Part shown: in pieces, positions 38,014 to 52,524 of the stretch | Numbering within the stretch: the stretch's first letter is position 1 | Layout: each line of letters opens with the position of its first letter | Assembly (NCBI RefSeq): GCF_013376475.1 | Contig: NZ_CP045508.1 | Coordinates: forward strand, 1,919,501 to 1,983,500 | Direction of reading: 5' to 3' | Source: Desulfolutivibrio sulfoxidireducens | Lineage (GTDB): Bacteria; Desulfobacterota; Desulfovibrionia; Desulfovibrionales; Desulfovibrionaceae | DNA length: 64,000 nt | Notes under the pieces: generated by a model | Database searches by the model: none | The model's input: the letters and a program-made list of their open reading frames with translations, nothing else | What the model was told of the DNA's origin: nothing | Made by a program: the position numbers and the translations under genes

Positions 38014-38188
38014 TCTGGACATGAGGGGCGCGGCGTGACCGGTCGCCATGTCCGGCATCGAATCCGCGAGGACGGCGAGGGTGTTGCCGCACACTGGAAA
38101 AACGGCGTCTTTTCGAAAGACCTTCACCATTTCACCTCATGCACATGAGACGCGACCGGACGGCGCGGGGCGCAACGGACAGCATTTC

Positions 38189-39643
38189 ATGCATCCCAAA
38201 CGACGACAGATCGGCCGCCTGGGCATCCCCTTCAAGCTCTTTTTCGTTTTCACGGTCATTTTGGCCATCAGCTACTTCACGACCTCGACCCTTTTTATCT
38301 CCATCCGGGACACTGTGGACATCACCCGGGACATCGTGAAGGTCCGCTTCGAGGTCCTGTCCATTTCCCAAAGGATGATCGACAGCCTGTTGTCCATGGA
38401 GGAAAACCAGAAGAAGTATCGGGTGCTCCGCGAGGACGAATACAAGAAGTCGTTTTTGGCCTCCCTTCAGGAATACCGCAACGCCATCTGGAGCATCCTG
38501 TGGTTCCGTTACGAGGGCTTCGCGGTCTGGGAGGGGCTGCACGAGGAATTCAAGGCCGAGTTTCCCGACCTGGCCGCCGGGGCGGACCTTCCTGGCGATC
38601 CGTGGGTCCCCCAGGAGAAACTCAACCGCTGGATCGAGATCATCCTGGACGCGCGGCGGGAGAACGAACGGGTCATCGAGACGGGAATGCGCAATCTGTA
38701 TTCCTTAAGCGAGCAGTCCGTGAACCGCGGCGTCAACGGACTCATCGTCTCCGTGGCCGTGGCCCTGGTGGGCATAGGCTACCTGGTCTTCACCGTGAGC
38801 CGCCCCCTGCGGGAACTGCGACGCGGTATCCGGGCCTTCACCGTGTCCGGGAGGCTCGAACCGGTCCGGGTCTTTTCCAAGGACGAACTGGGGGAACTGG
38901 CCTCGGCCTTCAACGAGATGACCCTGCGCCTCAAGGATGAAGAGAAGATGCGCACGGACTTCATCGACATGCTCAGTCACGAGATCCGCACCCCCCTGAC
39001 CTCCATCCGGGAATCGGTCAATCTTATCAAGGAAAACGTCTTCGGCGAGGTCAACGAGCGCCAGAGGCGTTTCCTGGACATCGCCGGGGACGAACTGGAG
39101 CGTATCTCCAACCTGCTGACGCGGCTCATGCGCGTTTCCAGCATGGCCTCCCAGATCGTGGACATCACTCTGACCCCGCTGAGCCCGGCCGAACTTCTGA
39201 ACGAGGTCCTGGACAAGGCCTCGCCGTCGGCCGAGGCCAAGGGAATTTCACTGGAGATTCGCGCCGGCGGCCATATCCCGCTCATCCTTGGGGACGAGGA
39301 GCTTTTGGGACAGGCATTGCTCAATCTGGTGGGCAACGCGGTCAAGTTCTCCCCCCGGAACAGCATGGTGACCTTGGGGCTGGAGATGGCCGACGGCGGC
39401 CACAAGGCGCTTTTCAGCGTCACCGACGAGGGCCCGGGCATTCCCGAGGAGGAGCAGCAAAACGTGTTCAACAAGTATTATCGCGGCGTGGCCACCAAAA
39501 AAACCACCGACGGCATCGGCCTGGGCCTGAACATCGCCCGAACCATCGTGGAGGCTCACGGGGGGGATATCTGGCTGACCAGCCTGCCCGGCAAGGGCTG
39601 CACATTTTACTTTACAATCCCTGTGGGCGGAGAGAGAGGATAG
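38189..39643 (+). CDS. Sensor histidine kinase, QseE/GlrK-like
   Basis: A 484-residue inner-membrane kinase. ATG 38189 is chosen because MHPKRRQIGRLGIPFKLFF begins a membrane protein directly; an upstream in-frame extension looks random. Helices lie at about 17-37 and 190-210, flanking a periplasmic helical sensor of about 150 residues. A HAMP linker follows, then the phospho-acceptor IDMLSHEIRTPLTSI near 262 and ATPase motifs NLVGNAVKF, DEGPGIP and GIGLGLNIARTI. The order kinase, small lipoprotein, sigma-54-type regulator matches E. coli glrK-qseG-glrR. It probably senses envelope stress and phosphorylates the regulator at 40258. Confidence 0.92.
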   Translation: MHPKRRQIGRLGIPFKLFFVFTVILAISYFTTSTLFISIRDTVDITRDIVKVRFEVLSISQRMIDSLLSMEENQKKYRVLREDEYKKSFLASLQEYRNAIWSILWFRYEGFAVWEGLHEEFKAEFPDLAAGADLPGDPWVPQEKLNRWIEIILDARRENERVIETGMRNLYSLSEQSVNRGVNGLIVSVAVALVGIGYLVFTVSRPLRELRRGIRAFTVSGRLEPVRVFSKDELGELASAFNEMTLRLKDEEKMRTDFIDMLSHEIRTPLTSIRESVNLIKENVFGEVNERQRRFLDIAGDELERISNLLTRLMRVSSMASQIVDITLTPLSPAELLNEVLDKASPSAEAKGISLEIRAGGHIPLILGDEELLGQALLNLVGNAVKFSPRNSMVTLGLEMADGGHKALFSVTDEGPGIPEEEQQNVFNKYYRGVATKKTTDGIGLGLNIARTIVEAHGGDIWLTSLPGKGCTFYFTIPVGGERG

Positions 39644-39653
39644 GGACGTGGAA

Positions 39654-40250
39654 ATGCAGTGTCGCAAATGGATGCGGGCCGCCGTCATGACCTGTGCCGT
39701 CGCGGCGACGGGATGTCTTGCGGGTTGCGCGGAAAAAGCCCCGCCGCCTCCCTTCTCGCCGACGCCCCTGCCTGTGGCCACGTCCGAGGAAACTCCCCCC
39801 AAGGCCGAGGACCCCAGATACGTCGACGCCGTCACGGCGCTCCTTGGCGGGGACGCGGAACTGGCCGCAACCCTTTTCGAACAGGTGCGTCAGAGCGCCG
39901 GGGACGAGCCCTCGCGGCGTCGCGCCCTGTACGGTTTGGCCTGCGCCAGGCTGCTTCTGGCCCAGGACGAGAAGGAACTTGCCAAGGCCAAGGCGCTGTG
40001 GGAGACGTGGCGCGCCGGTTCCCCTCCCGGGGGGGATGGCGAGGATCCCCGGCTCATGGCCGGCATGTTGCCCCATTTCCGTCCCGTCTTTCTGCTCAAG
40101 GACTTGAAGGCCGCCTGCGAAAAGGAATGCGACAAGCGGCTGTTGGAAAAGGAAGAGGAAGTCCGGCGGATCATCCAGCGCCAGGTCCAGGCCCTGGAGG
40201 AGATCCATCGGGAGATCCAGGAAAAAAAGAAGGGACTCTCCACCTATTGA
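39654..40250 (+). CDS. Lipoprotein, QseG-like by context
   Basis: A 198-residue lipoprotein. Its N-terminal signal ends in the lipobox LAGC (CLAGCAEKA). A Pro-rich spacer follows, then a helical domain (DAVTALLGGDAELAATLFEQ, RRALYGLACARLLLA), and a highly charged coiled C-terminus (LLEKEEEVRRIIQRQVQALE). ATG 39654 is used, with AGGGA about nine bases upstream; GTG 39648 is possible. It is encoded between a histidine kinase and its response regulator, the position of QseG, an outer-membrane lipoprotein that controls the kinase. Sequence similarity to QseG is not evident by eye. Confidence 0.82.
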   Translation: MQCRKWMRAAVMTCAVAATGCLAGCAEKAPPPPFSPTPLPVATSEETPPKAEDPRYVDAVTALLGGDAELAATLFEQVRQSAGDEPSRRRALYGLACARLLLAQDEKELAKAKALWETWRAGSPPGGDGEDPRLMAGMLPHFRPVFLLKDLKAACEKECDKRLLEKEEEVRRIIQRQVQALEEIHREIQEKKKGLSTY

Positions 40251-40257
40251 CGCGACC

Positions 40258-41688
40258 ATGAACCACGCTCCAATCCAAGGGAAAAACGTCCTGGTGGTGG
40301 ATGACGATCCGCATATCCTGGAGGTGCTCGACGCCAGGCTGGCCTCGGCCGGCTATCACGTGCGCCGGGCCGCCAGCGGCGAGGAGGCCCTGGAGCGTCT
40401 CAAGGGCGCGTCCGTGGACTTGGTCATCTCCGATATCCGCATGCCCGGCATGGACGGCATGAAGCTCCTTGAATCCATGGAGCGGTTCCATCCCGGTCTG
40501 CCTATCATCCTCCTGACCGCCCACGGCAGCATCTCCGGGGCCGTGGAGGCCATGAAGCACGGGGCCGTGGACTACCTGACCAAACCCTTCGACGGCCGGG
40601 AGCTTCTGTCCAAGGTGGCCGCCATCCTGCTCAAAACCGCGCGTCACGATCAGGTTTTCGGCGGGGGCAAGGCGGCCCTGGTGGGCGAAAGCCGGGCCAT
40701 GCGGGAACTGGCCGCCCTGGTCGAGCGGGTGGCCCCCCGGGACGTCAACGTCCTGGTGCTTGGCGAGTCGGGAACGGGCAAGGAACTGGTGGCCCACCAT
40801 ATCCACGAGAAAAGCGCCCGCCGGGCCGGACCGCTTCTGATCGTGGACTGCGGGTCGACCCCGGCCGGACTTCTGGAGAGCGAGCTTTTCGGTCACGTCA
40901 AGGGTTCGTTCACCCATGCGGTCAAGGACAAAAAAGGGCTCATCGAGCAGGCGAACCAGGGAACCCTTTTTTTGGACGAGATCGGCAACATCAGCGCCGA
41001 GATGCAGGTGCGACTGCTGCGTTTTCTGGAAAACCACAAGATCCGGCGCATCGGCGACGTTCGGGAGATTCAGGTCGACTGTCGGGTCATCGCCGCCACC
41101 AACGCCGACATCTTCAAGGAGGTGGCGGCGGGCAGGTTCCGCGAGGACCTGCTGTACCGCCTCAAGGTGGTGACCATACATGTCCCCCCCCTGCGGGAAC
41201 GCCGGGAGGACATTCCGATTCTGGCCGAACATTTCGTCCGGGAGTTTTGCCGCCGGCAGGGAATGCCCTCGGTGATCCTGCCTCCGGAGACCGCCGCCGC
41301 GATTTTGAACTATTCCTGGCCCGGAAACGTCCGCGAACTCAAAAACGCCCTGGAGGGCGGGGTGGTCCTGTGCTCGGATGGGGTGCTCCGGCCCGAGGAC
41401 CTTCAGTTGCGTCATTCGGACGGCATGGCCGCGCCCCCGGACGCGCCCGGTCGGTCGGGATATGAAGGCCCGGTCGCCGCGGTCGCGACGCCCGGCGCCC
41501 CGGCCGGCGAGGGCCAGCCCCTGTCCCTGGAGGAAAGCGAAAAAAAGGCCATCATCCGGGCCCTGGAGGAATCGGGCTGGGTGCAAAAGGACGCCGCGCC
41601 GCTTCTGGGCGTGAGCCGGCGGGCGCTCAACTACAAGATTCAGAAATACGACATCGAGATTCCCAAACGCCGCGCCCTCAAAAAATGA
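40258..41688 (+). CDS. Response regulator with AAA+ enhancer-binding domain, QseF/GlrR-like, altered GAFTGA loop
   Basis: A 476-residue regulator. The receiver (about 10-125) has DDDP and the phospho-acceptor Asp in [13 protein letters not shown]. The AAA+ domain (about 140-375) has Walker A GESGTGKE and Walker [11 protein letters not shown]. The sigma-54 contact loop, GAFTGA in active family members, reads GSFTHA (near 215). The C-terminal Fis-type helix-turn-helix is [21 protein letters not shown]. It follows the kinase and lipoprotein genes with seven bases' spacing. The loop change may weaken sigma-54 activation or mean a different mode of action. Confidence 0.92.
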
Positions 41689-41883
41689 CAGCGTCGCCCG
41701 GGAGCCCCGATGCGTGATGCGGAAAAATCCGTGCGGACCGGGCCGCGTTTTTTATGAAATTCAGGTGACAAATCCACGATATCCTCATCTTTCCTGTTAC
41801 ATACGGATTGAATCTTTGATAGGTATGGACCGTTCGTGAAATCCGGCGTCCACGCCAGACAACCGCCAACCCGGGACCTTTTC

Positions 41884-42618
41884 ATGGCCAACGGCCGTAC
41901 CGTCTCCGCCTTTTTCGATACCGGCGGGGAAAAAATATCCCGCCAGGTCGTGCTTCCTTTTCGCAAGTCCCTGGAAATAAGCATCAAAAGCATCAAGGTC
42001 CGGTTTTTCCGGTCCATGATCACGGTGATCGGGCTCATTTTGGCTGTGGCCTTTTTGGGGTTCGTGCTGGCTGGCGCGGATGTGGCCACAGGACTTCTGC
42101 TCTCGGGGGACCCGGAACTGCGCGCCGTCCTGATCAAGGCCGGCTACGATTTGCCACCACAGCCTCCGGAAACCGTCGGGGCCGATCAGGCGGACCTGGA
42201 AGGGGTGGGGACCGGGGCCAAGGAACGCTGGATCGTCATCCTGTCGCTTCTGGTGTGCACCGTGGGCATCGTCAACGCCCAACTCATGGCCGTGACCGAA
42301 CGCTTTCGGGAGATCGGGACCATGAAATGCCTGGGCGCCCTGGACAGCTTCGTGTTGCGCCTTTTTTTGATCGAGGCGGGCCTGCAGGGACTGGCCGGGT
42401 CGTTTCTCGGCGCGATCCTGGGGGCGGTGGCCGCCATTTTGGCCGGTCTTTTCCGCTTCGGCGCGGCGGCCGTGATCCATCTTCCCTGGGGGGCGCTGGT
42501 CCTGTCCATGGGGGCGGCCGTGGCCGTGGGGTTTGTTTTGAGCCTTTTGGGCGTGGTCTATCCGGCCGTGGTGGCCGCCAGGATGCGGCCCGTGGAGGCC
42601 ATGCGCGTCCAGGAATGA
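41884..42618 (+). CDS. Short FtsX-like ABC permease
   Basis: A 244-residue inner-membrane protein. ATG 41884 is chosen; GTG 41836 would add 16 residues with no family match. One helix lies near 45-66 (MITVIGLILAVAFLGFVLAG) and three more in the C-terminal half, ending in VVYPAVVAARMRPVEAMRVQE, the typical MacB/LolC-type C-terminus. VTERFREIGTMKCLGA is the FtsX coupling helix. The loop between helix 1 and 2 is only about 70 residues. It opens the 41.9-53.9 kb operon and pairs with the ATPase that starts 61 bases later. Confidence 0.88.
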   Translation: MANGRTVSAFFDTGGEKISRQVVLPFRKSLEISIKSIKVRFFRSMITVIGLILAVAFLGFVLAGADVATGLLLSGDPELRAVLIKAGYDLPPQPPETVGADQADLEGVGTGAKERWIVILSLLVCTVGIVNAQLMAVTERFREIGTMKCLGALDSFVLRLFLIEAGLQGLAGSFLGAILGAVAAILAGLFRFGAAAVIHLPWGALVLSMGAAVAVGFVLSLLGVVYPAVVAARMRPVEAMRVQE

Positions 42619-42679: not shown

Positions 42680-43420
42680 ATGGAAACGGGACACAATATC
42701 GTTCGGGTTTCCGAGGTCACCAGGACCTTCCGTATGGGAACCCAGGTCGTCCAGGCCTTAAAAGGCGTGGATCTGTCCATCCAGGCCGGGGAATACCTGT
42801 CCATCATGGGACCCTCGGGATCCGGAAAAAGTACGCTTTTCAACATGATCGGCGGACTGGACAAGCCCTCGACAGGCAAGGTGTACATCGACGAGGTGGA
42901 CATCGCCCAGCTCGATGCCTACGAACTGGCCTGGCTCAGGAACCGCAAGATCGGCTACATCTTCCAGACCTTCAACCTCATCCAGGTCATGACCGCCCTG
43001 GAAAACGTCACCCTGCCCATGATCTTCGCCGGCCTGTCCAATGACGAGGCCGTGGAAAAGGGCCTGGAACTTCTAGGACTGGTCGGGCTTCGCGAACGCC
43101 ACGCCCACAAGCCCAACGAACTCTCCGGAGGCCAGCAGCAGCGGGTGGCCATCGCCCGGTCCCTGGCCAACACCCCGGCCATCATCCTGGCCGACGAGCC
43201 CACCGGGAACCTGGACCTCAGCACCGGCGAGGAGATCATCGCCCTGCTCAAACATTTGAGCAGCGAACGCGGGGTAACCGTTATCTCCGCCACCCACGAC
43301 CACAAGATGCTGGCCGTGTCCGACCGGGTGGTCTGGATCCGCGACGGCCGCATCGACAAGATCGAAAGCCGCGACCAGCTCAACATCTCCGTTGGCGTCA
43401 TCACCTCCAAGGACGCATAG
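42680..43420 (+). CDS. LolD/MacB-type ABC transporter ATPase
   Basis: A 246-residue ATPase. Walker A is GPSGSGKS, the signature LSGGQQQR, and Walker B IILADEPTGNLD with SATHDHKML. FQTFNLIQVMTALENVTLPM is typical of the LolD/MacB/FtsE group, which drives mechanotransmission rather than ordinary uptake. It lies between two FtsX-like genes and is in position to serve both. The ATG is preceded by GAGG-like GAGGGGCGG. Confidence 0.95.
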   Translation: METGHNIVRVSEVTRTFRMGTQVVQALKGVDLSIQAGEYLSIMGPSGSGKSTLFNMIGGLDKPSTGKVYIDEVDIAQLDAYELAWLRNRKIGYIFQTFNLIQVMTALENVTLPMIFAGLSNDEAVEKGLELLGLVGLRERHAHKPNELSGGQQQRVAIARSLANTPAIILADEPTGNLDLSTGEEIIALLKHLSSERGVTVISATHDHKMLAVSDRVVWIRDGRIDKIESRDQLNISVGVITSKDA

Positions 43421-43428
43421 GCGGACGC

Positions 43429-46400
43429 ATGGCCGGATATGACGCAAAGGGAGCATCATTGCCGGGGGCGTCGCCTTGGATGCGCCGCCTGGGCGCCCGG
43501 GCGCTCGCGGTCGTTCTTTTCTGCGCCGTGGTGGCCGGTTCCGGCCTCGGGGCCATGGCCGCCTCCCGTCACAAGGCCGCGAAGCGGGAGGGCGCCGCCC
43601 CCCGGGTGACGGTCATGGAACGCATGCCCGCCTCGGCCGGGGCGGACTTCGAACGCTCGGTCATAAGCGCCCTGGCCGCCCTGGGGGACCGCCGGGCCGG
43701 AACCCCCGGGGGGGAGGCTACAGCCGATTTCGTGTTCGATTTTTTTTCCTCCCTGGGCGTCGGCGAGGCCGGACGGCAGGCCTACCAACTGCCGTTTCTG
43801 GGCCATGGCCCGGTAGGAATCGAGATCGCGGGCGGCGCGCGTGCCGCCCGGGCCTTGCCCACGGATTTAAACGCCCTGACACCGGGGGCCGTGCCGCCCG
43901 ATGGCCTGGGAGGCAAGGCGGTCTATGGCGGCCGGGGGGATTTCAGGGAGTTGTCCGGCCGGGAGGTAAGCGGCCAGATCGTGCTTATGGAGCTTGATTC
44001 CGGAAAAAACTGGATCAACGCCGCCCAACTCGGGGCCAAGGCCCTGGTGTACATCGACCGGGGCGTGGACGGCGGACCGTCCACCGCCGGATTCTACCGC
44101 GACAAATTCGAGCTCACTCCCATCCGCTTCCCCCGGTTCTACATGCCCCTTTCCGAGGCCAAGGCCCTTTTTGGCGATTTCGAGAGCGCCGCCTTCGAGC
44201 CCCCCGAGGTGCGGGTGACGGCCACGTCGCAGTGGAAACAGACGGTGGCCGAGAACATCTTCCTGTTCATTCCCGGAAACGACCAGGCCCGGGCCCACGA
44301 GGTGGTCCTGGTCGAGGCCCCCTACGATACCGGGGCCTTCGTGCCCGGCCTGGCCCCGGGAGCGGACCAGGCCGCCTCCCTGACCGCGCTTCTGCGCCTG
44401 GCCCTGGAACTGAAGGCCGCGCCCCCCGCCCGCTCGGTGCTTCTGGCGGCCACATCCGGCCAGGGCCGGGAACTGGCCGGGATGCGCGAACTGATCACGG
44501 CCATGCGGGTCAAGGGACGGGACCTGCGGGGCGTTGTGCGCGATCTCAAGATCGACATCGAGCGGGACACGGCCACCCGGGAGGCCCTCAAGGCCGCCCT
44601 GGACTCGGGCGGCGCCGGCGAGGTCCTTTTGTCCCCGGCCGTGAGCCAGGCCCTCGTCACCGGACTCAAGGACGCGGTGGATTCCCTGACCATGCGGCTT
44701 ATGCGCCTGCGGCTGGAGACCAGGGGGGCCGAGGAGAGCGTGGAGGGGAGCGTTTTGGCCGAGGAGCGCCGGGTCATGCGCCGCCTGGTGTGGCTCGATG
44801 ATTTCTCCACAGTGACCCCCGAGGAACGCCAGGTGCTGTTGGCCCTTATTCCCCAGGCCATGGCCAGGCTCCAGGAGAACGTGCAAAGCGCCGAGGACCA
44901 GTTGCGCTGCATGCAAAGCGCCCGGGAACTGCGCCGACTGGTGGGGGACAAGGACATCCTGGCCGCCGTCTCCCTGCATCTGTCGAGCAAGGGCAACGGC
45001 GTGGGGGCCTTTTGCGAGGGCTTCACCTACGATCTCAAACCCGAGGTGAACATCTCCCAGTGCTACGGCCAGATCGGCCGTTTTCTGGCCGACACGGCTG
45101 GGGACATCGAATCCGCCATGGGCCTTTCCGGCGGGGGGGAGGCCTTTTTCCGCGACGCCCTGCGCCAGAGCCGGCTGCGGCCCTGGCAAAGCTATCTCGT
45201 GGACAAGCCCAAGCTCGGCGGCGAGGTCAGCGCCAGGGCCGGCATCCTGGGCCTGACCCTGGCCACGGTCAATGACGCCCGGTCCCTGTGGGGCACTCCG
45301 GACGATACCGTGGACCGCGTGGATTTTCCCTTTCTCGAACGCCAGGCCCGTTTCACCACCAGGCTTTTGGCCGCCGTGTGCTCCCAACCCTTTGATCCCG
45401 GCGACAAAAAACCACGAAACGTGCTGGCCGGACTGACCGGCCGGGCCAACTTCATCCGGCAGGGCGAGCTTTTTCCCGAACGGCCCGCTCCGGGAACCGT
45501 CTTTCTGGTGTATCAGGGCAAGTCGCGTTTTTATGCCATGGCCGACGCCAAGGGTATTTTCCGGGTCAACGGCCTCTCGAGCAGCAAATACGTCCTGGAC
45601 AAGGCCATCATCGAGGGTTTCCGCTTCGATCCGGACACGGGCGAGGCCGTGTGGGCCGTGGACAAGAAGCAGACCGGCAAGGACGCCTACCGGGTCAAGA
45701 TGTCCCGGGACGCCATGGAAACCGACCTGATCATGTTCGGGTGCGACCAGAGCACGCTTTTTTCCGCCCTGGACCCGCGCACCTTCCGCTATTTCACCAA
45801 GATCGAGCTTCTCGACGGGAGGCGCGAGGCCCCGCCCATGCGCTCCTGGTTCAGCCGCCTGGACACCCTGGACTCCACCCTGTTGACCCTCTTTCTTGAA
45901 CCCGGGATATCCTACAAGCTCATCCTGTCGGACACGGTCCTGGCCCGCAAGATGATCCTTTTGAACGCCTCCAAGCAAGACCCTCACGGCACGGGCTATT
46001 CGGTGGACCAGTGGCCCATCCTGCCGGTCACGGAGATGGCCGCCGCCCGGGACATGTGGGATCTGCTGGCCCCCAGGATCAAGAACCTCGAGGACCACGG
46101 CATCTTCAACGAACGCATCCGGGAGTTGGAAAACGCGGGCACGGCGTATCTGAAAAAGGCCGAGGAGGCCCTGGCCGGGCAGGCCTACGAGACCTTCGTC
46201 TCCGAGGCCAGGGCCAGTTGGGCACTGGCCACCCGGGTGTACAACGATGTGGAAAAGACCCAGAAGGACGTGCTGTTGGGCGTTCTCTTCTACATCGCCC
46301 TGTTCGTGCCCTTCGCCTACTGCCTGGAGCGGGTGATTTTCTGCTACGCCGACATCCACAAGCGCATCCTGGCCTTTTGCGGCGTCCTGGCCGTGGTCAT

Positions 46401-48480
46401 CGGTCTGGTCTATCATGTGCATCCGGCCTTCCGCCTGACCTACAGTCCGCTCGTGGTCATCCTGGCCTTTTTCATCCTGGGGCTGTCCTTCGGGGTGGCG
46501 ATGATCATTTTTTTCAGATTCGAGCGGGAGATGGGCAACCTGCAAAAGCGGGCCATGCACGTCAAGACCTCGGAGATCGGGGGCCTTAAGGCCTTTGCCG
46601 CGGCCTTCGTCATCGGCGTCAGCAACCTGCGGCGTCGCAAGATCCGCACCACCCTGACCTGCCTGACCCTGATCATCCTGACCTTTACCATCATGAGCTT
46701 CACCGCGGTCAAGAGCTCCCGCCAGGAAGGGGCGGTCAAGTACCGCGACGACGCCCCCTATCAGGGAGCCCTGCTCAAGAACATCGGATGGCGGACCCTG
46801 CCCCCCGAGGCCCTGTCCGCGGTCCGGGACATGTTCCCGGGCCGCGAAAGCGTCTCGCCGCTTTGCTGGTACGAATTAAAGGACAAGACCCAGCCGGGGA
46901 TGAGCGAAATCGTCTCCGCCCACGGCCAGGCCACAGCCCAGGGCGTCATGGGGCTCTCGGCCTCCCGGGGCGAGGCCGAGCGCATGTCCCGGATTCTCTC
47001 GGCCGGCCGGTGGTTCGAACCTGGCGAACGCATGGCTGTGATCCTGCCGACGGGTGTGGCCGAGCGTCTCGGCGTGGTCCCGCTTCAACCCGGCCGGGAT
47101 ATGGTCCGGCTTTTCGGCATGGATTTTCGGGTGGTGGGGGTGTTCGGCCCGAACTCCCTGGACGAGATGCGCGACCTGGACGGCGAGCCGCTTACCCCAG
47201 TGGTCTTCCCCAGCGAGGCGGCCATGGAGGCCACCGAGGCCGAGAAGGAGGCCATGGATTCGGGCGAGGACGTAAGTTCCCTGCAAAGCCGCTACCAGCA
47301 CGTGGACGGCGACCTGACCGCGATCATTCCCTACGAGGTGCTCATGGGCCTGGGCGGGGAACTCAAGTCCATCTCCGTTTCCCTCCCGGACACGGACCCC
47401 GCGCGCGGCCGGACGACCGGATCGGGATCGGCCGGGGACAGGCCGGACGCCCGGATGGACGGCGACGCCACGGCCTTGGCCTCGACCCTGGCCGAGCGGT
47501 ACGGTCTGGCCATCTTCGCCGGCCAATCGGACGGCACCTTCGTCTACCATTCCACAGACACCTTAAGCTACGCCGGCATCCCCAACATCATCATCCCCCT
47601 GGTCATCTCCGTGTGCATCGTGCTCAACACCATGATCGGCAGCGTCTACGAGCGCAAACGCGAGATCGGGGTGTATACCGCCGTGGGCCTGGCCCCCACC
47701 CACGTCTCCTTTCTGTTCATCGCCGAGGCCCTGGCCTTCGCGGTCATAAGCGCCGTTTTGGGCTACCTTCTGGCCCAGACCGCGGCGGGCCTGTTGTCCG
47801 GCACCGCCATCTGGGCCGGCATGACCGCCAACTATTCGTCCCTTGCCGGCGTGGCGGCCATGATTTTGGTCATCGTGGTGGTCCTGTTGTCGGTCATCTA
47901 CCCCTCCAAGGTGGCCGGGGAGATCGCCATTCCCGACGTCAACCGTTCCTGGAACCTGCCTGATCCGAAAAACGGGATCATCACCATCCAGTTGCCGTTT
48001 CTCATGCGCATCCGGGAGCAGGAGTACGCCGGAGGATTCCTCCTGGATTACTACACGTCCCACCAGGACATCTCCCATGGGCTTTTTTCCACCGACGACG
48101 TCCGGTTCTCCTTTGAATGCCCCTGGGAAGAGCAGGGCAAGGGACCGCATCCGGCCAGGATTCATGACTCCTTTTCGGAACTGAAGTCCTGCTTCCGGCT
48201 GACCGCCACGGTGTGGCTGGCCCCCTTTGATTTCGGCATCAAGGAGCGGGTAAACATTTTCTTTCTGCCGGACATGAAAAATCCGGGATTCATGAACATC
48301 GAGGTGTCGCTCGAACGCGTGGCCGGCGAGGCGGGCATGTGGAAACGCCTGAACAAGGGATTCTTGAACAATTTGCGCAAGCAGCTTCTGGTGTGGCGTT
48401 CCCTGGACCCCGAGGCCCAGGTGTCCTACGAGGAGCATATCATCGCGGGGCTTGCCGAGCAGAAGGCGGGGGGCCGATGA
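43429..48480 (+). CDS. Giant FtsX-like permease with a large M28-like, apparently metal-less extracytoplasmic domain
   Basis: A 1683-residue protein beginning eight bases after the ATPase stop. A signal/anchor helix (about 20-45) is followed by about 900 extracytoplasmic residues. Residues about 65-370 resemble a peptidase M28 fold with a PA-like insertion: HEVVLVEAPYDTG, then LAPGADQAASLTALLRLALE, and LLAATSGQGRELAGMREL. The expected zinc ligands are lost: AHYD is APYD, GANDNAS is GADQAAS, and the EE pair is RE. Membrane helices lie at about 945-1035, 1060-1100 and 1380-1505, the last group being the FtsX core (MIGSVYERKREIGVYTAVGL). About 180 cytoplasmic or soluble residues end it. It must pair with the LolD-type ATPase. 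Confidence 0.9.
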   Translation: MAGYDAKGASLPGASPWMRRLGARALAVVLFCAVVAGSGLGAMAASRHKAAKREGAAPRVTVMERMPASAGADFERSVISALAALGDRRAGTPGGEATADFVFDFFSSLGVGEAGRQAYQLPFLGHGPVGIEIAGGARAARALPTDLNALTPGAVPPDGLGGKAVYGGRGDFRELSGREVSGQIVLMELDSGKNWINAAQLGAKALVYIDRGVDGGPSTAGFYRDKFELTPIRFPRFYMPLSEAKALFGDFESAAFEPPEVRVTATSQWKQTVAENIFLFIPGNDQARAHEVVLVEAPYDTGAFVPGLAPGADQAASLTALLRLALELKAAPPARSVLLAATSGQGRELAGMRELITAMRVKGRDLRGVVRDLKIDIERDTATREALKAALDSGGAGEVLLSPAVSQALVTGLKDAVDSLTMRLMRLRLETRGAEESVEGSVLAEERRVMRRLVWLDDFSTVTPEERQVLLALIPQAMARLQENVQSAEDQLRCMQSARELRRLVGDKDILAAVSLHLSSKGNGVGAFCEGFTYDLKPEVNISQCYGQIGRFLADTAGDIESAMGLSGGGEAFFRDALRQSRLRPWQSYLVDKPKLGGEVSARAGILGLTLATVNDARSLWGTPDDTVDRVDFPFLERQARFTTRLLAAVCSQPFDPGDKKPRNVLAGLTGRANFIRQGELFPERPAPGTVFLVYQGKSRFYAMADAKGIFRVNGLSSSKYVLDKAIIEGFRFDPDTGEAVWAVDKKQTGKDAYRVKMSRDAMETDLIMFGCDQSTLFSALDPRTFRYFTKIELLDGRREAPPMRSWFSRLDTLDSTLLTLFLEPGISYKLILSDTVLARKMILLNASKQDPHGTGYSVDQWPILPVTEMAAARDMWDLLAPRIKNLEDHGIFNERIRELENAGTAYLKKAEEALAGQAYETFVSEARASWALATRVYNDVEKTQKDVLLGVLFYIALFVPFAYCLERVIFCYADIHKRILAFCGVLAVVIGLVYHVHPAFRLTYSPLVVILAFFILGLSFGVAMIIFFRFEREMGNLQKRAMHVKTSEIGGLKAFAAAFVIGVSNLRRRKIRTTLTCLTLIILTFTIMSFTAVKSSRQEGAVKYRDDAPYQGALLKNIGWRTLPPEALSAVRDMFPGRESVSPLCWYELKDKTQPGMSEIVSAHGQATAQGVMGLSASRGEAERMSRILSAGRWFEPGERMAVILPTGVAERLGVVPLQPGRDMVRLFGMDFRVVGVFGPNSLDEMRDLDGEPLTPVVFPSEAAMEATEAEKEAMDSGEDVSSLQSRYQHVDGDLTAIIPYEVLMGLGGELKSISVSLPDTDPARGRTTGSGSAGDRPDARMDGDATALASTLAERYGLAIFAGQSDGTFVYHSTDTLSYAGIPNIIIPLVISVCIVLNTMIGSVYERKREIGVYTAVGLAPTHVSFLFIAEALAFAVISAVLGYLLAQTAAGLLSGTAIWAGMTANYSSLAGVAAMILVIVVVLLSVIYPSKVAGEIAIPDVNRSWNLPDPKNGIITIQLPFLMRIREQEYAGGFLLDYYTSHQDISHGLFSTDDVRFSFECPWEEQGKGPHPARIHDSFSELKSCFRLTATVWLAPFDFGIKERVNIFFLPDMKNPGFMNIEVSLERVAGEAGMWKRLNKGFLNNLRKQLLVWRSLDPEAQVSYEEHIIAGLAEQKAGGR

Positions 48481-48566
48481 TGCAAGGCCGTATCTGGCAA
48501 AAAGTGCGGCGGCGTGATGCCGCAAACGTGGGCCAGCGGGATCGCGCGCCGGAGGTTCGGGCATGA
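48477..48566 (+). CDS. Possible 29-residue coupled ORF
   Basis: An ATG at 48477 overlaps the stop of the giant FtsX gene (ATGA), and its own TGA overlaps the start of the next gene (ATGA again), so ribosomes could re-initiate through it. The predicted peptide is basic (MMQGRIWQKVRRRDAANVGQ...) with no recognisable domain. No separate ribosome site is seen. It may be an accidental frame that still couples translation. Confidence 0.35.
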   Translation: MMQGRIWQKVRRRDAANVGQRDRAPEVRA

Positions 48567-50533
48567 TTCGGGCGCGTTGCGTGGTCCTGGGGATCGTCCT
48601 GGGTCTGGTCATCTGCGCCGTGACCCCCTTCAACAACATGTATCTGGCGGCCACTCCCCTTGGGGGCGGCCATTTCCCCCTGGCCCCCTTTTTCATCCTG
48701 ATCCTGGCCACCCTGGCCGCGGCCCTGGCCTCCAGGCTCGTCTTTCGCCGGAAAACGATGCTGACCGGCCTTGAATTGCTGGTTTCCTGGGGATTCATGG
48801 TGGTGGTCTCGGGCATCGCCTATACCGGCCTGGCCCGGACCTTTTTCATCAATGTCACGGCCTCGACGCATTTCGCCACCGTGGGCAACCGGTGGAAGGA
48901 GATCGTGGCCCCCCTGGTTCCCCCGGCCTGGATGCCGTCCGACGCCTCCGCCGTGGAGACCCTGTACAACGGCCTGGAGGGCGGCTACCGCCTGGGCTGG
49001 CTCGACGTCCTGGCGAAGATTCCATGGGCGGCCTGGGCCGGTCCCCTGGCGGCCTGGGGGGTGTTCATCCTTTTGTGCTCCCTGGTCATGGTCTGCCTGG
49101 TGAATCTGTTTTCCCGGCAGTGGATTTCCAACGAGCGCATGAACTTTCCCCTGCTTCGGGTGCCCACCCACATGACCGAGGCCTACGATCAGGGGCAGGC
49201 GTTCGGCTTTTTCACGGATCGCTATCTGCTTTTGGGGGTGTGTGTTCCGGTCTTTTTGCACACCATAAACGGCATCGGATTCTACGACCCGGCCGTGCCC
49301 CAGATCCCCACGCTGTTTCTCCTGGGCCCCTATTTCCCCACCACGGGTTTTTTTTCGGGGTTCAGCAAGCTGCGCCTGTATTTCTACCCGGCGTTCATCG
49401 GGTTCGCCTACCTGACCGCCCGCCAGATATCCTTGAGCTTCTGGGTGTTCTATCTGCTCGGGGGCCTTTTGTTCGGCCTTTTCGAGGTGTTCGGCTACCA
49501 GATTCCCTCCTCGGCCCTGGGCGTGACCTTCGGTCCGACCCTGACCCGTCCCGAGGAGACGCAGATGATCGGGGCTTATGGCGTTTTTTTCCTGTTCATC
49601 ATCTGGCTGGCCAGGCAACATCTGTTCACGGCCGCCCGGGACGCCGTGACCTTTCGCCGCGCCCCGGCCGCCGAGAGCGAATGGTTTTCGGCGGCCCTGT
49701 CGTTTTGGGGTTTTCTGTCCGGACTGGCGCTTCTGACCGCCTGGTGCGTGTACTTCGGCATGTCGCTTGTGCCCGCGCTCCTGCTCCTGGGCATCTTTTT
49801 CGTCATCATGCTGGTGGCCACGCGCATCATCTGCCAGGGCGGCCTGGCCTATTTCACCCTGACCGCCGCGCCGACCGACGGCCTTCTGGCCTTTTTCGGG
49901 TCGGGATTCTTCTCCAACATCGGGCTCATGATGGCCGCGATCATGCAGAAGGTCCTTTTTGTGGATCTGCGCGAGTCGCTCATGCCGTCACTCATGCATT
50001 TCTCCAAGGTCGGGGAGAACGTCCGCCAAAAGAGGCTTCTTCTCGGGGGGCTGGCCGTGGCCCTGGTCCTGGCCGTGGCCGTTTCCTTCGCGGCCATGCT
50101 GGCCCTGTGCCATAAATTCGGCCTGCGCGATCTGCAGGTGGACTGGGAGACGCAAACCACGGTGGGGGTGTACGAGAATGTGCAGCGGCTTCTCGAAGCC
50201 CCGTCCGGTCCCAACGAGTGGATCATCGGGTTCGCCGTGGCCGGGGCTGTGGTCATGTTCGTCCTGGTGGCCTGTTACCAGCGTTTTTACTGGTGGCCCA
50301 TCCATCCCGTCGGCTACCTGACCATGTACAGTTCGGCCATGCGCATCCTATGGTTCAGCTTCCTCATCGGCTGGATGTGCAACCAGCTCACCCTGCGCTA
50401 CGGCGGGGTGGCCCTTTTCAGACGGGTGCGCATGCTTTTCGTGGGGCTGATCATCGGCGATTTCCTCATGGGCGGCATCTACGCCGTCATCGGCGTCTAC
50501 GCCGGGCAAAGCTATCTGGTCCTGCCCAACTGA
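48563..50533 (+). CDS. DUF6785/OPT-related polytopic membrane protein
   Basis: A 656-residue inner-membrane protein with about 14 hydrophobic segments. MIRARCVVLGIVLGLVICAV and PFNNMYLAATPLGGGHFP at the start, RIICQGGLAYFTLTAAPTDG in the middle and YWWPIHPVGYLTMYSS near the end are typical of the DUF6785/DUF6784 family, distantly related to oligopeptide transporters (OPT). No function is established to my knowledge. It starts inside an ATGA overlap and is followed 35 bases later by a second OPT-related gene. Confidence 0.82.
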   Translation: MIRARCVVLGIVLGLVICAVTPFNNMYLAATPLGGGHFPLAPFFILILATLAAALASRLVFRRKTMLTGLELLVSWGFMVVVSGIAYTGLARTFFINVTASTHFATVGNRWKEIVAPLVPPAWMPSDASAVETLYNGLEGGYRLGWLDVLAKIPWAAWAGPLAAWGVFILLCSLVMVCLVNLFSRQWISNERMNFPLLRVPTHMTEAYDQGQAFGFFTDRYLLLGVCVPVFLHTINGIGFYDPAVPQIPTLFLLGPYFPTTGFFSGFSKLRLYFYPAFIGFAYLTARQISLSFWVFYLLGGLLFGLFEVFGYQIPSSALGVTFGPTLTRPEETQMIGAYGVFFLFIIWLARQHLFTAARDAVTFRRAPAAESEWFSAALSFWGFLSGLALLTAWCVYFGMSLVPALLLLGIFFVIMLVATRIICQGGLAYFTLTAAPTDGLLAFFGSGFFSNIGLMMAAIMQKVLFVDLRESLMPSLMHFSKVGENVRQKRLLLGGLAVALVLAVAVSFAAMLALCHKFGLRDLQVDWETQTTVGVYENVQRLLEAPSGPNEWIIGFAVAGAVVMFVLVACYQRFYWWPIHPVGYLTMYSSAMRILWFSFLIGWMCNQLTLRYGGVALFRRVRMLFVGLIIGDFLMGGIYAVIGVYAGQSYLVLPN

Positions 50534-50568: not shown

Positions 50569-52524
50569 ATGTACGACGACAAGGAACTGAAAGAATATCG
50601 CGATCTTCTGCCGCAGCCATCCCATTTCGAGGAGGGCTTCGACTGGAAGACCATCGTCGGCGCGGTGTTCATCGGCTTTCTGATGATGCCCGGCAGCATG
50701 TACCTGCAACTGGTCATCGGCACGGGCATAGGGCCCGCCGCGCGCTGGGTGACCATCATCCTCTTCGCCGAGATCGCCAAGCGGGCCTACACCGAACTCA
50801 AGCAGCAGGAAATCTTCCTGCTCTATTACATGGCCGGGGCGGCCATGGCCTCGCCCTTTTCCGGGCTCTTGTGGAACCAGTACCTGATCCAGTCCGACGC
50901 GGCCAAGATGCTGGGGCTGACCGAATTCATCCCCGCCTGGGTGGCCCCGGCCGTGGGGTCCGAATCCTTACTCCAACGCACCTTCCTGCATCGCGACTGG
51001 CTCATCCCCATCCTGCTTCTGGTCGGGTCCCAGATCGTGCAGCGGGTGGACCATTTCGGCCTGGGCTATGCCCTGTACCGCATCACCTCCGATGTGGAAA
51101 AACTGCCCTTTCCCATGGCCCCGGTCGGAGCCCTGGGCACCATGGCCCTGGCCGAGTCCACCGAGGACAAGAAAACCGGCTGGAAGTGGCGGGTCTTTTC
51201 CATCGGCGGCATGATCGGGCTGGTCTTCGGGGCCGTGTACGTCCTTTTCCCCGTGGTTTCCGGACTCGTGTTCACCGAGCCCATCCGCATCATCCCCATC
51301 CCCTGGGCGGATTTCACCCGCAACACGGAAAAATGGCTGCCGGCCGTGGCCACGGGCATCCAGCTCGACCTGGGGCTTCTGTTTACGGGCATGGTGCTGC
51401 CGTTCTGGGCGGTCATCGGCGGACTCATGGGCCTTTTGATCACCGTGGTGGCCAACCCGATCCTCTTCGAGCACGGTATCCTGCACCGCTGGCGCTACGG
51501 CATGGGCACGGTGGATACCGTCTTCGCCAACAACTTCGACTTCTACATGAGCTTCGGCATCGGCCTCGGCCTGGCCATCGGGCTCATTGGCGTGTGGCAG
51601 GTGGCCAAGTCCTTCGGCAAGGGTTCGGGGGGCGTGGGGTACCGGGCGCTTTTCACCTCCAACAAGGCCCGGGGCGACATCAATTTCTGGGTGTCCGTCG
51701 CCATCTACGTGCTTTCAACACTGGCCTACATCGCCCTGTGCGTGTGGCTGGTGCCCAATTTCCCCTGGATCTTCTTCATTCTCTACGGCTTCGTGTACAC
51801 CCCGGTCGTTTCGTACATCACCGCGCGCATGGAGGGCATCGCCGGACAGTTCGTGAGCCTGCCACTGGTGCGCGAGGCCAGCTTCATCGCCGGGGCCCGG
51901 TTTTTCGGCTACCAGGGCATCGAGATCTGGTACGCGCCCATCCCCATCCACAACTACGGCAAGGCCACAGTGGATTTCCGGGAGATCGAGCTGACCGGCA
52001 CGAGTCTTCGGGGCATCATCAAGGCCGAGATCGTGGTCTTTCCGGTGGTCATGCTGGCCAGCCTGTTCTTTTCCCAGTTCATCTGGCAACTGGCCCCCAT
52101 CCCCTCGACCTCGTATCCCTACGCCCAGGAGTTGTGGCATCTGCAGGCCCTAAACACCCTGCTCATGCAGACCTCCACCCTTGAGGGAAATTCCCTGTTC
52201 TTCCAGGCCTTGAGCGGATGGTACGTGGGGGCCGGGACGCTTCTGGGGCTGGTCACCTATTTTCTCTTGAGCGTTTTTGGATTGCCCGTACTCCTGGTCT
52301 ACGGCATCGTGCGCGGACTGGGGCAGAGCACCCCCCACGGCCTTATCCTGGAACTGCTGGGGGCGCTGATCGGCCGGTACTATTTTCTCAAGCGGTACGG
52401 GGCCATGTGGCGGCAATACGCGCCGGTGCTCTTGGCCGGGTTCTCCTGCGGCATGGGGCTTATGGGCATGTTCTCCATGGGCGCCACGCTGATCATGAAA
52501 TCCCTCGGCCGGCTGGCGTATTAG
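50569..52524 (+). CDS. OPT-related polytopic membrane protein
   Basis: A 651-residue inner-membrane protein with about 14 hydrophobic segments. ATG 50569 has GGAG seven bases upstream. EGFDWKTIVGAVFIGFLMMPGS and GTGIGPAARWVTIILFAEIAKRAYTELKQQE (shown here as GPAARWVTIILFAEI then KRAYTELKQQE) are in the region where OPT transporters begin; RVDHFGLGYALYRITSDVEKLPFP is also present. It likely pairs with the upstream protein as a two-component carrier. The cargo, perhaps peptides, metal chelates or lipid-linked oligosaccharides, is unknown. Confidence 0.8.
   Translation: MYDDKELKEYRDLLPQPSHFEEGFDWKTIVGAVFIGFLMMPGSMYLQLVIGTGIGPAARWVTIILFAEIAKRAYTELKQQEIFLLYYMAGAAMASPFSGLLWNQYLIQSDAAKMLGLTEFIPAWVAPAVGSESLLQRTFLHRDWLIPILLLVGSQIVQRVDHFGLGYALYRITSDVEKLPFPMAPVGALGTMALAESTEDKKTGWKWRVFSIGGMIGLVFGAVYVLFPVVSGLVFTEPIRIIPIPWADFTRNTEKWLPAVATGIQLDLGLLFTGMVLPFWAVIGGLMGLLITVVANPILFEHGILHRWRYGMGTVDTVFANNFDFYMSFGIGLGLAIGLIGVWQVAKSFGKGSGGVGYRALFTSNKARGDINFWVSVAIYVLSTLAYIALCVWLVPNFPWIFFILYGFVYTPVVSYITARMEGIAGQFVSLPLVREASFIAGARFFGYQGIEIWYAPIPIHNYGKATVDFREIELTGTSLRGIIKAEIVVFPVVMLASLFFSQFIWQLAPIPSTSYPYAQELWHLQALNTLLMQTSTLEGNSLFFQALSGWYVGAGTLLGLVTYFLLSVFGLPVLLVYGIVRGLGQSTPHGLILELLGALIGRYYFLKRYGAMWRQYAPVLLAGFSCGMGLMGMFSMGATLIMKSLGRLAY

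Follow-up and report, generated by a model that had tools for sequence, protein, structure and literature searches.

Our data show that a gene at positions 43429 to 48480 (+) of the window, i.e. of the whole 64,000-nucleotide stretch of Desulfolutivibrio sulfoxidireducens DNA analysed here, encodes a giant Type VII ABC permease of 1683 residues that carries, probably on the periplasmic side, a domain with the predicted fold of an M28 aminopeptidase and the remains of its zinc site. The parts of this protein are all of known kinds, and it is their combination that is new for a Type VII ABC machine. An earlier note, made from the letters of the DNA alone, had proposed that the M28-like domain binds rather than cuts, and with the zinc ligands lost throughout the family this remains the likeliest reading.

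The 1683-residue open reading frame, which starts with ATG, is a real gene. Full-length orthologues exist (10 among 39 related genomes, at 39–83% identity) and thereby rule out a frame error or a shadow ORF, so that the FtsX-type frame described in the earlier note stands as it was given. A scan of GTDB species genomes yielded 178 loci related to the giant, and family alignments and neighbour counts were based on the best 80 of these. All of these 80 loci belong to Desulfobacterota-type organisms, i.e. to Desulfovibrionaceae (including Solidesulfovibrio and Fundidesulfovibrio), Desulfobacterales, Desulfobulbaceae and others. A stop or frameshift breaks the gene into two ORFs in three draft genomes (L045, 8773–13710; L062; L115), possibly owing to sequencing errors. 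Long antisense ORFs of up to 897 residues, e.g. 43867–46560 (−), face the giant gene in the window; they are without support and probably an effect of high G+C.

By structural model and sequence profile alike, approximately residues 67–655 (43627..45393, +) form an M28 aminopeptidase fold with an inserted PA domain. AlphaFold2, run on residues 60–690 with 81 sequences, returned a model with a pLDDT of 91.8 and a pTM of 0.92, which matches M28 structures with Z scores of 24–29 over 240–400 residues, the top rows all being M28 or M28-derived proteins. Among these structural matches (VIA) are BSAP (6hc6; Z 29.2, 376 residues aligned), the Aeromonas aminopeptidase (1amp; Z 27.4, 258 residues aligned, 2.5 Å) and the transferrin receptor (Z 25.6). 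Compared with the PDB, the family profile finds the M28 aminopeptidases 2ek8 (E 6.6e-12) and 6hc6 (E 1.1e-10) and also reaches the Aeromonas aminopeptidase, the transferrin receptor (E 3e-4) and, weakly, nicastrin. The Pfam M28 model matches 7 of 11 family members (best E 1.3e-8) and gives no match with the window protein taken alone; the PA domain (PF02225), found in 10 of the 11 (best E 1.4e-5), is weakly detectable in the window protein at residues 161–218 (43909..44082, +; E 0.0067). According to the secondary structure of the model, a long helical insertion interrupts the M28 fold at about residues 363–505 (44515..44943, +). Thus, the suspected M28-like domain and its fusion to an FtsX permease were both borne out, and the predicted fold did not turn out to be an unrelated one; the span of residues 60–400 assigned to the domain in the earlier note does have the M28 fold, but cuts a domain that reaches to about residue 655.

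What this predicted fold has lost is its co-catalytic zinc site. Ligand positions were taken from profile alignments to 2ek8 and to the Aeromonas aminopeptidase, whose zinc ligands we take to be His97, Asp117, Glu152, Asp179 and His256, with Glu151 as the catalytic residue, and the residues at these positions were counted over 81 family sequences. The three motifs quoted in the earlier note map to VEAPYDTG (residues 295–302), PGADQAAS (310–317) and TSGQGREL (342–349). In the first, P298 (44320..44322, +) occupies the position of His97, which is Phe in 73 of the 81 sequences, Pro in 5, including the window protein, and Ala in 3, so that the exchange of His for Pro was rightly seen and an intact set of ligands did not emerge. 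D313 (44365..44367, +), in the PGAD of the second motif, is the putative bridging Asp117 (Asp in 79 sequences, Glu in 2) and as such probably retained, in an alignment that needs a one-residue deletion. In the third, Q345 and G346 (44461..44466, +) align with the catalytic Glu151 and the ligand Glu152, where none of the 81 sequences has a Glu and most have His-Ala; the position of Glu151 is His in 67, Gln in the window protein and Arg, Asn, Lys or Tyr in others, and that of Glu152 is Ala, Gly, Ser or another residue. The Glu-Glu pair had earlier been equated with R347-E348, which is off by two residues, and two further replacements had been overlooked. These are H517 (44977..44979, +) at the second-site Asp179 (His in 71, Tyr in 9 and Phe in 1 of the 81), a position read from the strand that follows the helical insertion and therefore less certain than the others, and G622 (45292..45294, +), within WGTPDDT, at the last ligand, His256 (Gly in 79, Ser in 2).

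Taken together, four of the five zinc ligands (His, Asp, Glu, Asp, His) are missing in 81 of 81 sequences, the bridging Asp being the likely exception, and the catalytic Glu that precedes the ligand Glu is missing in all of them as well. The zinc site is therefore absent family-wide, and its loss predates either the divergence of these orders or the spread of the gene among them. An active M28 enzyme can thus be dismissed, and so can a recent decay confined to the gene of a single strain, since the same ligand replacements span the orders sampled. BSAP/YwaD (6hc6) and the Aneurinibacillus enzyme (2ek8) share with the giant the fold, the PA insertion, the order of motifs and the C-terminal xTPxDT; the giant differs from both in lacking the zinc ligands save the bridging Asp, in its helical insertion of about 140 residues and in being fused to an ABC permease.

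In contrast to the rest of the fold, with a mean top-residue frequency of 0.54, the former active-site segments reach 0.78, a level that 5000 randomly drawn sets of segments never attained, in a comparison of sequences that are kin and not independent. Because this contrast is found within one and the same alignment, it argues for a function that is kept by the cleft of the putatively dead M28 domain. In the genus of the window protein, residues near the site drift further (Q345, K521, N523). Known Type VII machines differ in the part that is moved; here, this part would be a fused, long-dead peptidase, with the preserved cleft as a defined pocket.

The same pattern bears on an alternative that we consider unlikely, if well worth keeping in mind, namely that the pseudo-M28 domain binds no ligand itself but serves as a protein–protein docking or lever module, which would recruit or switch a periplasmic enzyme or a membrane partner upon ATP. 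Nicastrin and the transferrin receptor are non-enzymatic M28 relatives, and FtsEX acts through EnvC. Docking would fit the profile and fold matches to the transferrin receptor (E 3e-4, Z 25.6) and the weak one to nicastrin, a helical insertion that could reach a partner, and the general tendency of Type VII systems to act on periplasmic partners; however, the most conserved residues line the former catalytic cleft and are not spread over the surface. Transferrin receptor 1 and nicastrin are, like the giant, non-catalytic membrane-anchored proteins with an M28 fold, but they are eukaryotic, come without ABC machinery and have other replacements in the site.

An even less probable alternative is an unusual, remodelled enzyme, in which D313, the His at position 345 (Gln in the window protein) and H517 could together form the site of a different, single metal and cut an ester or amide in a glycan. 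Each of these three residues is kept in 67–79 of the 81 members, and the PDB title of a Glu151His mutant of the Aeromonas aminopeptidase (2anp) calls it ‘functional’. By its title, however, this mutant alters the catalytic Glu alone and no metal ligand, whereas every member of the family has lost the ligand Glu152 as well as the two His ligands, and the window protein itself has Q345.

In the remainder of the giant, an N-terminal hydrophobic segment at about residues 17–52 (43477..43584, +), with a family-average hydropathy peak at residue 34, is a probable Sec signal peptide, which may be cleaved; from hydropathy, the M28 domain would be periplasmic and the C-terminal tail cytoplasmic. The model places one or more beta-rich periplasmic domains, to which no fold match was assigned, at about residues 690–845 (45496..45963, +), and hydropathy predicts three extra transmembrane helices (centres 957, 989 and 1018; 46264..46518, +) preceding the FtsX unit. 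The latter, residues 1049–1502 (46573..47934, +), is a Type VII ABC permease of the MacB/LolCDE/FtsEX kind, with a MacB/LolC-like periplasmic domain between the first two of its four helices (centres 1085, 1396, 1435 and 1481 by family hydropathy). Pfam finds FtsX (PF02687) at residues 1389–1495 above the cut-off (E 4.2e-12) and, weakly, the MacB periplasmic core at 1076–1244. In an AlphaFold2 model of residues 676–1683 (mean pLDDT 82, pTM 0.69), the permease unit matches HrtB, MacB, YtrF, LolC and FtsX with Z scores of 14–16, and MacB with a Foldseek E of 2.5e-12; the whole-chain rmsd is high, showing that the arrangement of the periplasmic part with respect to the membrane part differs or is uncertain. 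Instead of the ‘channel’ of which the earlier note had spoken, this fold is that of the mechanotransmission kind of ABC machine.

Residues 1514–1664 (47968..48420, +), the probably cytoplasmic tail, tentatively represent a START/Bet v 1-like domain comparable to the lipid-transfer proteins SLMO1 and PRELID1. The fold match is a moderate one, with Z scores (VIA) of 8.0–8.3 to Ara h 8, LLPR10 and SLMO1 in five consistent rows (mean pLDDT of the model 82) and a Foldseek probability of about 0.7 for PRELID1 and a phospholipid-trafficking complex; sequence searches matched the tail to no known family.

The giant is encoded within a conserved block, which in most loci that are long enough has the order small FtsX, ATPase, giant, DUF6785/6784 protein and a membrane protein of 651 residues. 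The small FtsX permease (41836..42618, +; PF02687, E 8.7e-16) has a short periplasmic loop between its first helices and, being kept beside the giant, is its probable partner in a heterodimer. The ABC ATPase (42680..43420, +; PF00005, E 6.7e-36), which is of the LolD/MacB/FtsE kind, has intact motifs (Walker A GPSGSGKST, LSGGQ), is 73–95% identical between loci and adjoins the giant in almost every locus that includes upstream sequence. Downstream of the giant follow the multi-spanning DUF6785/DUF6784 membrane protein (48563..50533, +; E 1.3e-161 and 3.8e-34) and the likewise multi-spanning 651-residue protein (50569..52524, +), which is 75–90% identical across the orders sampled, with a mean column identity of 87% in 26 sequences. 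Without a match to any family in Pfam or NCBIfam, the latter is a strong candidate for a new family. Its similarity to prokaryotic OPT transporters (PF03169), a weak collinear profile match along with a similar charged-hydrophobic-proline motif, is under the Pfam cut-off and not significant as membership: a single orthologue reaches E 7.9e-4, Pfam OPT is otherwise unmatched, and hhalign on shallow alignments gives E 0.0022 with a probability of 13%. Like the 651-residue protein, the DUF6785 protein could not be placed firmly in the OPT family. The two membrane proteins gave no indication of homology to each other by hhalign (E 0.36), sequence searches found no solved structural relatives of either, and no plasmid-borne copies of the 651-residue protein were found.

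A sample of 148 genomes from the phylum has the giant in 11 genomes from nine families, the window's own among them, and these same 11 alone contain the 651-residue protein and a DUF6785 match above cut-off; a DUF6785 fragment that falls below it was seen in one more genome. The system is thus present in about 7% of the genomes sampled. In the open-access literature, we found no paper on DUF6785/6784 or on a fusion of FtsX with M28, an absence that is not proof, and the block is an apparently undescribed gene set of sulfate reducers and their relatives.

An indication of what the cleft might hold comes from the neighbourhood of the block, as seen by clustering neighbouring genes across the best 80 of the 178 loci. 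Upstream of it, in 17–35 of these 80 loci, genes for GT28, GT4, GT4, a histidine phosphatase, GT28 and a DUF2334/polysaccharide-deacetylase-like protein are found. Adjacent to the block in other orders, the linked glycosyltransferases do not adjoin it in the genome of the window, but lie 1.2 Mb away at 3.185–3.197 Mb. Since the second GT28 (E < 1e-80) and the first GT4 (E < 1e-120) nevertheless single out precisely those 11 of the 148 genomes that have the block, the link is more than one of mere neighbourhood; weaker paralogues occur in other genomes (e.g. GT28 at 6.4e-47 in G090), and kinship of the genomes weakens a formal test of co-occurrence, but the system is distributed patchily, across nine families. 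This linkage points to an envelope glycan as the probable ligand, whereas nothing was found that points to the peptide or peptidoglycan ligand suggested in the earlier note. The own-genome glycosyltransferase genes (L127, 4500–17100; 3.185–3.198 Mb) lie near two regulatory genes, one for a CBS/PAS hybrid kinase and one for a sigma-54 activator.

In Type VII systems, ATP drives work in the periplasm, usually on a periplasmic partner; LolCDE extracts lipoproteins, and for YbbAP a role in lipid extraction has been proposed, which would supply the esterase TesA (PMC12646458). By analogy to these systems, and from the linkage of genes, we propose an ATP-driven Type VII machine whose pseudo-M28 head binds an envelope glycoconjugate and hands it over, a proposal to which we would give an even chance of being right. 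We infer its heterodimer, topology, ligand binding, direction and substrate as well as the roles of its two membrane partners, and it would work as follows. As the large permease subunit, the giant would pair with the products of the two genes just upstream, the small FtsX and the ATPase. When ATP is bound on the cytoplasmic side, the periplasmic part of the giant would move and, with it, the fused dead M28 fold, in whose conserved cleft a ligand would be held and not cut. The DUF6785/6784 and 651-residue membrane proteins would be partners, along with a dedicated set of cytoplasmic glycosyltransferases. Most probably, the machine would extract a lipid-linked envelope glycan, or take it over after flipping, for hand-over to a further component, and the START-like tail may handle the lipid or another hydrophobic part of the glycan. 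More speculatively, the entire gene set could represent an undescribed pathway of envelope glycolipid assembly and export in Desulfobacterota, which would combine a Type VII machine, its dead-hydrolase head and lipid-binding START-like tail with two membrane proteins that represent a new type of transporter; this is possible, but we would not count on it.

The linked glycan-making enzymes speak against what is the least probable alternative, an FtsEX-like switch in wall remodelling in which the M28 domain senses stem peptides: M28 enzymes do bind peptides, the targets of FtsEX are peptidoglycan amidases, and the OPT model, whose proteins carry peptides, weakly touches one orthologue of the 651-residue protein, but the giant scores 16.1 bits with a curated FtsX equivalog model that has a cut-off of 250 (and 9.8–11.4 with others), so that a cell-division FtsX is dismissed, and a system found in about 7% of the sampled genomes would not serve a core division function.

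With respect to known systems, the proposed machine resembles YbbAP-TesA, which also joins a Type VII machine to a periplasmic component of hydrolase type (PMC12646458); TesA, however, is a separate and active GDSL esterase, whereas the hydrolase fold of the giant is fused, belongs to another family and is apparently dead. LolCDE, MacAB-TolC and FtsEX-EnvC share with the giant system the permease fold, the MacB/LolC-like periplasmic domain and a LolD-type ATPase, but come without a fused enzyme fold, a START-like tail or partners of the DUF6785 or 651-residue kind. The envelope glycans of sulfate reducers are little known, and the co-occurrence of the block with glycosyltransferases joins a number of hypothetical proteins, including the 651-residue protein, into a single testable pathway.

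Several other genes accompany the block. Just upstream of it in the window (38048–41688) lie genes for a histidine kinase, a putative lipoprotein of 200 residues and an NtrC-type response regulator, a trio that is kept beside the block in four loci of Desulfovibrionaceae (L039, L040, L041 and L043) and may regulate it. On the 3′ side, a small PqqD-like protein (PF05402) is encoded in about 20 loci (e.g. L069, 20056–20463), and a further conserved protein without a family (cluster c2) in about 25. In one genome, genes for a DegT-type sugar aminotransferase and a GSCFA-family protein are found beside the block (L128, 10490–11704 and 3468–4676), and a GSCFA gene is also present in L116.
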